NCBI RefSeq assembly: GCF_001436305.1
Contig: NZ_AZFO01000015.1
Coordinates: 1 to 46,004, forward strand
DNA length: 46,004 nt
From: Lactobacillus ultunensis DSM 16047
GTDB taxonomy: Bacteria; Bacillota; Bacilli; Lactobacillales; Lactobacillaceae
Reading direction: 5' to 3'
A model generated the notes under the pieces. The model saw only the letters and a list, made by a program, of their open reading frames with translations, had not been told where the DNA came from and searched no databases. The position numbers were made by a program, and so were the translations under genes. Below, one piece after another: positions 12,981-14,755 of the stretch. The first letter of the stretch is position 1, and each line of letters starts with the position of its first letter.

Positions 12981-14495
12981 TTAAACTTTTTGTAGTTTTA
13001 TTCTCTGCTTAGCAACTTGCTGAATAAAGTATTGATCATGCTCTATTAATAGCATGGCAGGCTGCTTTTCTTTTAGAAGCTTAATTAATTGATCTTGATT
13101 AAAAACGTCTAAGTAGTTTGCAGGTTCATCCCATAAATACAAATTTGCTGGTTCAACTAAAGACTTTGCTAGTGCTACCCGTTTCTGCTGACCCATACTC
13201 ATTTCTTCAATTTTTGTTGCAAAGCTTTCTCTTGGAAAACCCATTTTTTTCAAGTTATTGAGCAGTTCTTCATACGAAATCTTTTGCTTCTCGGCAAACT
13301 CTTTCAAGGTACCACTATATTCTGTAAAGTCTTGTGGCAGGTACGAAATCCTCAAACCATTAGCTAACTCTGACTTACCTTTATAAGAAATATCAGTAGT
13401 TTGACCTAGCAGAAATTTTAAAAACGTTGACTTACCAGATCCATTTTTACCTTCAAGTGAAACTACGCCATGATTCTCAACCTGAAGATTTAAATCTTTA
13501 AACAATTCTTTACCCTGAATACTCAAAGATAAATGCCGGGTTTCAAGCAAAGTTTGATGATAATTTGGATCAAAATTCATCGTCAAATCTGGTACATCCT
13601 CGATGTTAGTCATCAATCCTTTTTTGGCTTCGATATTTTTATTAAGTCTGTGCTCAATATTTTTAGCACGTCTCATATCATTGGCGGCTATTTTTGTTAC
13701 ATCAAATCGTAAAGAATGAAAAGCTCGGTGATTAATTTTTCCCTTAAATTTTCGAGCACTATTTTTGGTGCTTTCAGACCTTTCCGCAAACATTAGGTTC
13801 TTCTGCAGTGAATCATTCAACCTGCGAACCTCATTCTTTAGTTTTTCATTCTTTTCACGGTTAAACTCATCACGCTTGTTCTTTGTACCCTCATAACTAG
13901 CGTAGTTACCTTGATACAAATGAATCTCAGTATTTTCAATTGCCAAAATATGATCAGTCACTTCATTCAAGAAATCACGATCATGACTAACTACGATATA
14001 GCCTTTATCATGCTTTTTCAGATAATCTGCAACTTGCTTTCGGCTATCTTCATCCAAATGGTTCGTTGGCTCATCAATCAGTGGAAATACATCCCTATCA
14101 GTAAATGATAAAGCTAACAATACTTTAGTTTGCTCACCACCACTTAAAGTTTCAAACGGTTGCCAAAGCAGATCTGGATCGGTATTCATCAAATTCAGTT
14201 CTCGTTCAAGCTCCCATTCTTCAAAGTTAGCTTGCTCTTGTAACTCATATAAAGTAATATTCTCAGGATTCTTAATCTGAAGAGGAAAATATGAAAAAGT
14301 CAGTTTACTCTGAATTTTTCCTAAACCCGTTAACTTACCTCTTAACAAATTTAAGAAAGTAGTTTTGCCCCTTCCGTTTCTACCAACTAGTCCTAATTTC
14401 CATGTACTGTCTAAGTTCAAATTTAAATTGTTGAAAATATTAAAACTTGCATCGTCATATTTAAAGGAAAGATTAGTAATCTTAATGTTGCTCAT
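12981..14495 (-). CDS. ABC-F ATPase, probable ribosomal-protection antibiotic resistance protein
   Basis: A 504-residue soluble protein with two ABC ATPase domains and no membrane segment. Domain 1 has Walker A GRNGRGKTT, signature LSGGEQTK and Walker B LIDEPTNHLD. A charged linker of about 90-100 residues follows. Domain 2 has GKNGSGKST, signature MSMGQQKRV and LWDEPANYLD. Length, the GRNGRGKTT loop and the layout resemble Lsa/Msr-type proteins that dislodge lincosamide, streptogramin A, pleuromutilin or macrolide drugs from the ribosome. Substrate is inference; a housekeeping ABC-F role is possible. The start at 14495 follows GAGGTGATTT. The leader carries attenuator-like hairpins and short ORFs, which favours the resistance reading. 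It sits between ribF and hrcA with its own promoter and looks like an added gene. Confidence 0.88.
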   Translation of the reverse strand: MSNIKITNLSFKYDDASFNIFNNLNLNLDSTWKLGLVGRNGRGKTTFLNLLRGKLTGLGKIQSKLTFSYFPLQIKNPENITLYELQEQANFEEWELERELNLMNTDPDLLWQPFETLSGGEQTKVLLALSFTDRDVFPLIDEPTNHLDEDSRKQVADYLKKHDKGYIVVSHDRDFLNEVTDHILAIENTEIHLYQGNYASYEGTKNKRDEFNREKNEKLKNEVRRLNDSLQKNLMFAERSESTKNSARKFKGKINHRAFHSLRFDVTKIAANDMRRAKNIEHRLNKNIEAKKGLMTNIEDVPDLTMNFDPNYHQTLLETRHLSLSIQGKELFKDLNLQVENHGVVSLEGKNGSGKSTFLKFLLGQTTDISYKGKSELANGLRISYLPQDFTEYSGTLKEFAEKQKISYEELLNNLKKMGFPRESFATKIEEMSMGQQKRVALAKSLVEPANLYLWDEPANYLDVFNQDQLIKLLKEKQPAMLLIEHDQYFIQQVAKQRIKLQKV

Positions 14496-14499
14496 CAAA

Positions 14500-14541
14500 T
14501 CACCTCACGCAAAAAGAGAGCCCACACTTTTGTCCCAGCAT
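14500..14541 (-). CDS. Leader ORF spanning the second attenuator hairpin (13 codons)
   Basis: Encodes MLGQKCGLSFCVR and stop. AGAGGAGAG stands 3-10 nt before the ATG. The start codon falls in the 5' arm of the terminator hairpin (14511-14549). The TGA at 14500-14502 precedes the ABC-F start at 14495 by only four bases and overlaps the end of its GAGGTGAT ribosome-binding site. The placement suggests a regulatory upstream ORF or translational coupling. Confidence 0.6.
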   Translation of the reverse strand: MLGQKCGLSFCVR

Positions 14542-14549
14542 AGACTCTC
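14511..14549 (-). terminator. Attenuator T2: terminator hairpin just before the ABC-F gene
   Basis: On the minus strand GAGAGTCTATGC can pair with GTGTGGGCTCTC (12 bp including wobble pairs, 10-nt loop), followed directly by TTTTT at 14511-14515. It lies downstream of the gene's promoter and upstream of its start, so it would end transcription in the leader by default. Confidence 0.75.
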
Positions 14550-14596
14550 CTCTTATTTTCTTATAAATATGAAAAAAAAGGATAAACCGTCCACGT

Positions 14597-14617
14597 CTAA
14601 TCTTGACAAAAGTGCAT
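14597..14617 (-). CDS. Leader ORF of six codons (MHFCQD) inside attenuator T1
   Basis: GAGGGAG at 14623-14629, five bases of spacing, then ATG CAC TTT TGT CAA GAT TAG. The strong ribosome-binding site sits in the loop and the codons in the 3' arm of T1, so a ribosome stalled here would disrupt the upper stem. Short drug-sensing leader ORFs are known upstream of other ABC-F and Erm genes. Confidence 0.6.
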   Translation of the reverse strand: MHFCQD

Positions 14618-14651
14618 AGTAACTCCCTCATAAAAAAGAGAAATTATTAAA

Positions 14652-14690
14652 CTATGCTTCATTTTGCAAGATTAAAGACGCAACGGACAT
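14652..14690 (-). CDS. Possible first leader ORF (12 codons, MSVASLILQNEA)
   Basis: ATG at 14690 with AGAAAGAAGG immediately before it, a spacing that is shorter than ideal. It covers the whole 5' arm of T1. If translated, a ribosome stalled on it would free the 3' arm to pair with T2. Weaker than the other two leader ORFs because of the ribosome-binding-site spacing. Confidence 0.35.
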   Translation of the reverse strand: MSVASLILQNEA

Positions 14691-14726
14691 CCTTCTTTCT
14701 AAACGTAAATTTCAATTGATGTTTTA

Positions 14727-14755
14727 AATATATCATCTAATTTGCTAGTTTGCAA
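14727..14755 (-). promoter_or_regulatory. Promoter of the ABC-F gene
   Basis: Minus-strand TTGCAA (14750-14755), 17-bp spacer, TATATT (14727-14732) preceded by TGA (extended -10). The -35 lies inside the end of ribF. Predicted start near 14720, giving a leader of about 225 nt. Confidence 0.75.

Follow-up and report, generated by a model that had tools for sequence, protein, structure and literature searches.

Why is a resistance-type ABC-F gene of Lactobacillus ultunensis DSM 16047 preceded by a 225-nucleotide (nt) leader in which two terminator-shaped hairpins stand in series? Here we report an analysis of this leader, which lies on the minus strand of a 46,004-nt stretch (assembly GCF_001436305.1, contig NZ_AZFO01000015.1, positions 1 to 46,004; hereafter the window). 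The two hairpins, T1 and T2, are complementary to each other in part, and the leader is likely to be a ribosome-controlled transcription attenuator in which two serial terminators answer to one sensor. Attenuation by a ribosome stall on a three-codon upstream open reading frame (uORF) is established for vmlR and cplR, whose uORFs read M-I-N and M-R-I (PMC9226507, PMC10201436); the vmlR leader of Bacillus subtilis consists of an anti-antiterminator (SL-1), one terminator (SL-3) and a hairpin (SL-4) that hides the Shine-Dalgarno sequence (SD) (PMC9226507). Statements on papers cited by PMC number refer to the parts of their text that were available.

A first-pass annotation of the window had described T1, T2, their T tracts and a 10-base complementarity between them; all were recovered, the T2 stem beginning one base before the start it had given. 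It had overlooked the sensor, a three-codon uORF with its SD in the 5' arm of T1. The elements of the leader are as follows.

14727 to 14755, minus strand: promoter-like site TTGCAA / 17 / TATATT, with TG before the -10 (site scan).
14691 to 14697, minus strand: AAGAAGG, SD of the uORF (sequence; comparable purine runs precede the uORF in leaders of relatives).
14672 to 14683, minus strand: three-codon uORF TTG CGT CTT TAA (M-R-L-stop), likely the ribosome-stall sensor (sequence and relatives).
14571 to 14700, minus strand: T1, a long hairpin whose 5' arm contains the uORF together with its SD, presumed terminator and anti-antiterminator (folding, covariation, U-tract test).
14605 to 14616, minus strand: segment of the T1 3' arm, putative antiterminator strand A, TGCACTTTTGTC (helix search, covariation).
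14523 to 14534, minus strand: T2 loop and segment of the T2 3' arm, putative antiterminator strand B, GACAAAAGTGTG (helix search, covariation).
14511 to 14550, minus strand: T2, second terminator-like hairpin, with TTTTT at 14515-14511 (sequence, folding, relatives).

Seven bases separate AAGAAGG from the TTG of the uORF. The U tract of T1 consists of eight T (14579-14572), and the stem of T2 is GGAGAG...CTCTC (14550-14516). The T1 segment CACTTTTGTC (14614-14605) matches the reverse complement of GACAAAAGTG (14534-14525) without exception, and counting G-U pairs the cross-helix comprises 12 pairs (14616-14605 with 14534-14523). The leader folds at -76.2 kcal/mol, compared with -46.4 +/- 4.0 in 200 shuffles (z = -7.4; none as good), and the duplex of the T1 region with the downstream part reaches -39.0 kcal/mol against a shuffle mean of -24.0 (standard deviation 3.8; 0 of 200 as good). 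A simple terminator scan listed neither hairpin, probably because the stems extend into the T tracts and T1 exceeds the length covered by the scan. Rfam gave no match in the window, and the best of three weak matches scored 17.9 bits against a threshold of 100.

Conservation of the uORF and the cross-pairing

Searches for the ABC-F protein were positive in 44 of 75 Lactobacillus genomes (E <= 1e-50), in 205 of 397 drawn from the family (E <= 1e-80) and in 61 of 198 drawn from the order, the last two draws including Lactobacillus. Upstream regions were gathered from 169 loci, duplicates and distant relatives included (L-numbers denote leader loci and G-numbers genomes); some rows entered the scripts without being viewed. 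For Lactobacillus, 72 leaders with a placed T1 were reduced to 67 with a uORF start codon and CG, and to 30 representatives after merging those at least 90% alike. T1 was placed by a script requiring at least five T in seven, and by hand in L015, L043, L069, L070, L071, L083, L085, L087 and L101; the script mistook T2 for T1 in L088 and L089, which were retained in the duplex swap test and weigh against the model there. For the helix swap, the T2 search and the U-tract test, the family and order sets were confined to leaders that have an M-R/K-x uORF, had their T1 placed and share less than 85% similarity (22 or 25 leaders from loci L100-L153 and 9 from L154-L173, respectively), and the genus set for the helix swap held 19 leaders.

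The uORF has three codons in 26 of the 30 representatives, six in L015 and L070, seven in L069 and two in L084, and six of the 10 invariant columns in their alignment lie within it, the set having been chosen for the start codon and CG. Among the other lineages, whose set was selected for M-R/K-x, the forms M-R-I, M-R-N, M-K-N, M-K-K, M-K-I and M-K-F occur.

Covariation was scored on an alignment of 18 leaders (A2), using a 15-pair cross-helix between the T1 3' arm and T2 defined from the fold of L010. Twelve representatives whose antiterminator region was unaligned or judged too different were dropped (L005, L008, L015, L016, L070, L072, L085, L087, L088, L089, L091 and L095), and the 30-leader alignment (A1) was not counted. 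The cross-helix was paired in 95.8% of 265 cells, with six pairs changed on both sides (shuffle mean 1.8) and a covariation score of 0.264 versus 0.158, a value reached in 0 of 500 shuffles; sliding the partner by 1-3 columns lowered the pairing to 23-62%. Column pair 108-206, of which the first column is unpaired in T1 and the second unpaired in T2 as drawn, was paired in 17 of the 18 leaders by five kinds of pair (A-U 7, G-C 4, G-U 4, U-A 1, U-G 1, unpaired 1). Its nearest rival within T1 is C45, with which G108 could pair, but 45-108 is a standard pair in 11 of 18 leaders. The pairs of T2 were kept in 97.4% of cells, and three of them changed on both sides.

Averaged over the leaders, an alignment-free comparison pointed the same way. 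In the duplex swap test on the 30 representatives, own partners gave a mean of -32.1 kcal/mol and swapped partners -26.0 (0 of 20000 permutations as good), the own duplex lying within the best 5% of shuffles in 26 leaders. Swapping ungapped helices gave 22.3 for own and 17.7 for swapped partners in the family outside the genus (22 leaders; 0 of 20000), and 25.3 and 19.8 in the genus (19 leaders; 1 of 20000). Because the ungapped search chooses other helices where a bulge breaks the pairing, energies were used as well. The letters of the cross-helix differ wholly between lineages (TGCACTTTTGACAAG with CTTGTCAAAAGTGTA in L010, TTTTCAGAATCAGTT with AACTGATTCTGAAAA in L105). On this comparative evidence the cross-pairing is under selection, and the uORF, T1, T2 and the T1-T2 cross-pairing are shown by sequence comparison to be conserved in Lactobacillus leaders. 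The first-pass annotation had proposed that an alternative pairing breaks both hairpins, and had named its loss in related leaders without compensatory change as the finding that would speak against it; the covariation in the 18 leaders backs the proposal.

A covariance model of T1 and T2 (R1), built from leaders of these species and giving no independent count of sensitivity, matched 39 of the 75 Lactobacillus genomes at E <= 0.01. By coordinate comparison, 45 of its 47 matches at E <= 1.9e-5 abut an ABC-F gene; the two others lie at a contig end (G016) and in G039. The latter leader (L190; G039:C7:70419-70651) has a ribF-like gene on one side and an hrcA-like gene on the other; the stretch fetched contains no ABC-F match, and the leader is probably a relic.

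A proposed switch: one stall and two gates

In the mechanism that we favour, a ribosome would complete the three-codon uORF at once when no drug is present, the arms of T1 would pair, and T1 would halt RNA polymerase at its U tract; polymerases passing T1 would meet T2, which would be free to fold since the 3' arm is tied up in T1. Ribosome stalling in the first codons, caused by a drug such as a lincosamide, pleuromutilin or streptogramin A if vmlR and cplR are a guide, would leave the SD and the uORF, i.e. the T1 5' arm, covered by the stalled ribosome. T1 could then not form, its freed 3' arm would capture the emerging loop and 3' arm of T2 before T2 closes, and a single stall would thereby open both gates and let the ABC-F gene be transcribed.

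Growing transcripts of the 18 leaders were folded with the leader free or with a ribosome footprint on the uORF masked. With the leader free, predicted cross-pairing was at most 0.05 in 16 leaders (transient in L003 and L071) and T2 formed; with the uORF masked, it reached at least 0.5 before T2 was complete in 17 leaders (exception L020). At the end of the T2 stem in the window, cross-pairing and T2 stood at 0.53 and 0.11 with the uORF arm masked, and at 0.00 and 0.91 with the leader free. The alternative fold foreseen by the annotation is thus predicted to win only where the T1 5' arm is blocked.

Several results weigh against the two-gate mechanism. The structures counted come from the L010 fold, which favours them over slid versions, and the shuffles ignore relatedness, so that both controls are lenient towards the cross-helix. 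T1 pairs were kept in 73.8% of cells in the 18 leaders; 20 of them changed on both sides, with a score reached in 0 of 500 shuffles. The own duplex fell outside the best 5% of shuffles in L016, L020, L088 and L091; the own partner ranked first in four of the 30 representatives and within the best three in 17, and it was 20th or worse in L055, L087, L088 and L089, of which L088 and L089 have a mislocated T1. The ungapped-helix swap was weak in the order (9 leaders; own 24.4, swapped 21.8; 168 of 20000), and helices of at least 10 pairs were also frequent among swaps (family 13 of 22 own and 144 of 462 swapped, order 8 of 9 and 53 of 72, genus 14 of 19 and 165 of 342). R1 had no match in seven of the 44 Lactobacillus genomes bearing the ABC-F gene (G002, G009, G010, G022, G032, G036 and G057). 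Masking lowered T2 by at least 0.3 at its stem end in five of the 18 leaders (L043, which is that of the window, L004, L071, L075 and L098), the only ones for which folding at equilibrium predicts a clear switch. T2 outweighed the cross-pairing there in 14 of the 18 masked leaders, and in the masked window leader T2 had regained a value of 0.42 eight bases further on. The model therefore requires the cross-pairing to hold for the brief passage of the polymerase, and this is its weakest step.

Two further points of this kind concern the hairpins as terminators. The T2 criterion, a stem-loop with a folding energy no weaker than -9 kcal/mol and U's directly after it, found T2 in 16 of 22 Lactobacillus leaders and in seven of nine leaders of other Lactobacillales, and in three of 25 leaders of other Lactobacillaceae, counts being low where the script took T2 for T1; in L093, L112, L129 and L148 the hairpin that the script called T1 is 26-34 nt away from the gene and could be T2, so the T2 counts are possibly too low. 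The two-terminator form was also recognized by eye in another family of Lactobacillales, in Enterococcus raffinosus, and judged from these sequences it is kept in Lactobacillus and in other families of the order. The T1 U tract of Lactobacillus, in turn, is complementary to the SD of the uORF, a second possible reason for its conservation.

This complementarity would suit an arrangement with one gate, as in vmlR, in which T1 is a non-terminating anti-antiterminator covering the uORF SD, T2 the sole terminator and the cross-pairing its antiterminator. SL-1 of vmlR is such a hairpin (PMC9226507), and the T1 tract is poor in some leaders (TTCTTTTAAT in L012, TTCTTTTATT in L003). However, in a search for the best partner of the uORF arm that made no demand for U's, a U-rich tract (at least five U in seven) adjoined the T1 stem in 23 of 30 leaders of the genus, 19 of 25 of the family and 9 of 9 of the order (10.6, 9.4 and 3.8 expected at random places). 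These include lineages with an SD (GTGAGGGATC) that by eye shows hardly any complementarity to the tract. In the 22 of 25 leaders of other genera where no T2 was found, T1 would be left as the only terminator. We consider the one-gate arrangement unlikely.

The 14 masked leaders in which T2 prevails would also fit a drug-controlled T1 gate followed by T2 as an unregulated fail-safe terminator, the complementarity of T1 having no role in transcription. The letters of the T2 loop covary with those of the T1 3' arm, however, and own partners are preferred in lineages whose letters are unrelated. Both findings would require the pairing to have a function, which makes a fail-safe T2 quite improbable.

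A second SD-like purine run with a start codon lies on the antiterminator strand (14616-14596, minus strand; about columns 93-110 of A2), where the window reads ATG CAC TTT TGT CAA GAT TAG (M-H-F-C-Q-D). The pattern matched 19 of the 30 representatives, seven of them with x-H/Y-F-stop, and misses some (e.g. L071 and L085). It may reflect merely the pairing constraints of T1 and T2. A version of the two-gate switch that reads the dose through this element (M-H-F-stop in some relatives) and gives a biphasic response is conceivable and rather far-fetched: at low drug a stall on the first uORF would open both gates, whereas higher doses would add a stall on the antiterminator strand, keep that strand from pairing with T2 and so reclose the second gate.

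The ABC-F gene and its surroundings

The gene and its SD are located as follows.

12981 to 14495, minus strand: Lsa-like ABC-F ribosome-protection protein of 504 amino acids (profile and structure-sequence matches).
14503 to 14506, minus strand: GAGG, SD of the ABC-F gene, outside T2 (read in the sequence).

The protein scored 446.6 bits with NF000355 (ribosomal protection-like ABC-F; cut-off 380), and the solved structure closest to it by sequence is Lsa(A), 7nhk, in agreement with the resistance-type gene of the first-pass annotation. With the Lsa family model NF000167 it scored 602.9 bits, below the strict cut-off of 750, and it is therefore not called Lsa by that model. By its sequence the gene downstream of the leader is an ARE-ABCF. 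Read along the minus strand, the genes are infB, rbfA, truB, ribF, the ABC-F gene, hrcA and grpE, the neighbours being named from recognition of their sequences.

Near the gene start the complementarity raises the question of translational attenuation of the erm kind, with a hairpin hiding the SD of the ABC-F gene. Both layers are present in cplR and vmlR (PMC10201436, PMC9226507), and lineages without T2 have their complementary segment close to the gene start, as in SL-4 of vmlR; in other Lactobacillaceae a cross-helix of at least 10 pairs (13 of 22) is commoner than a second terminator (3 of 25). In the window, by contrast, the SD is touched only by a helix of seven mostly weak pairs with the 5' end of the leader, in which three of its four bases pair in the predicted minimum-energy fold. 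We give this alternative very little credence. Several leaders among L102-L134 (other Lactobacillaceae) show no second terminator, although their T1 3' arm pairs at length with a segment near the ABC-F start.

The leader begins where ribF ends, and its -35 overlaps the last ribF codons, as might be expected if the hairpins were ordinary tandem terminators ending the upstream ribF unit. Yet the leader includes a uORF, an SD and a promoter-like site, and it also abuts second ABC-F copies within one genome (e.g. G034) and accompanies the gene in full on plasmids, in L. amylovorus and Limosilactobacillus reuteri (L186, L187), which leaves the ribF reading hardly tenable. A gene for an IS3-family transposase adjoins the Limosilactobacillus reuteri plasmid copy.

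The site named as a promoter by the annotation is present, and the RNA would start near 14720; such promoter-like sites are no commoner there than in shuffles (8 found, 11.2 expected). By eye, a TATNNT-like hexamer occurs in relatives at a comparable distance before a stretch corresponding to ATCAATTGAAAT (window 14720-14709, minus strand). This stretch, at the presumed 5' end of the RNA, is exact in 17 of the 30 Lactobacillus representatives.

Other candidates were examined and set aside. GGGACAAAAG is not a dispersed intergenic repeat, GGGACAAAAGTG being present once in the 2.16-Mb genome. Longer open reading frames in the leader (43 amino acids from 14631 on the minus strand; 84 amino acids on the plus strand) and an ATG at 14690 are by eye seemingly not kept in the relatives examined, and the leader of lsa(E) on an E. 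faecium plasmid differs by eye. Two Lactobacillus ABC-F genes of the same family (L067 and L068; 67-68% identical) show by eye neither an M-R-x uORF nor such a leader, and R1 has no match in their genomes (G022, G036). The Limosilactobacillus leaders L022, L024 and L026-L029 carry the uORF TTG AAA TTT/TTC TAA (M-K-F), and in leaders of this genus a segment resembling GGTAGA is complementary to part of a later hairpin (e.g. CTACGGGTAGA with TCTACCTGTAG in L029); they possibly follow the same logic using other hairpins.

Relation to known attenuators

The leader shares features with the ARE-ABCF attenuator class: a very short putative uORF with an SD is present in the 5' leader by sequence, and prediction and covariation place this uORF in a hairpin that shares its 3' arm with the antiterminator. 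T1 and T2, the candidate intrinsic terminators before the gene, each have a stem and a U tract that are conserved in sequence. With the vmlR leader (PMC9226507) it shares the three-codon uORF and SD in the first hairpin, the antiterminator that a stall would free and the downstream ARE-ABCF gene; it differs in that the uORF hairpin has its own U tract and is followed by a second terminator-like hairpin, and in the uORF (M-R-L versus M-I-N). The cplR leader of Clostridioides difficile (PMC10201436) resembles it in the M-R-I uORF, close to the M-R-L/F/I/N forms here, in the intrinsic terminator, a candidate one here, and in the ARE-ABCF gene, whereas cplR has one terminator, which also covers the SD of the gene. 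LsaA is likewise an Lsa-type gene with a predicted regulatory uORF, of the consensus M-A-G-N (PMC10201436), in contrast to the M-R/K-x of the leaders selected in this analysis, most of which start with TTG. In hflXr/rli80 of Listeria (PMC6310831) and msrD (PMC10314930) a stall on a leader ORF averts a terminator, as proposed here, but the leader peptides have 14 and 6 residues and one terminator precedes the gene. Tandem terminators, as predicted for this leader, occur in the rimP leader, which belongs to another gene and for which the available part of PMC2965389 mentions no uORF. This 2010 survey also lists, for L. gasseri and L. johnsonii, a leader of unexplained mechanism that precedes a 'multidrug export system operon' and is possibly identical with the ABC-F leader, possibly not.

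Nothing on leaders was found in the available part of PMC8196190, and no Lsa leader with two terminators was found among the matches listed in the literature searched (titles and beginnings of abstracts). The general principle of stall attenuation is known; the wiring of two gates was not found described in that literature. The tandem-attenuator reading of the leader is supported at the level of sequence, and the three-way logic of vmlR apparently runs two transcription gates here, in that the anti-antiterminator hairpin is apparently itself a terminator.

If this is true, these leaders form an RNA family outside Rfam that precedes Lsa-like ABC-F genes in Lactobacillus and other Lactobacillales, and in which one ribosome stall governs two serial terminators, the 3' arm of the first replacing the 5' arm of the second. 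Those leaders that cross-pair over a long stretch and have no second terminator would provide a natural series for separating both steps, and the arrangement would explain how a resistance factor can be held tightly off and yet be rapidly inducible.
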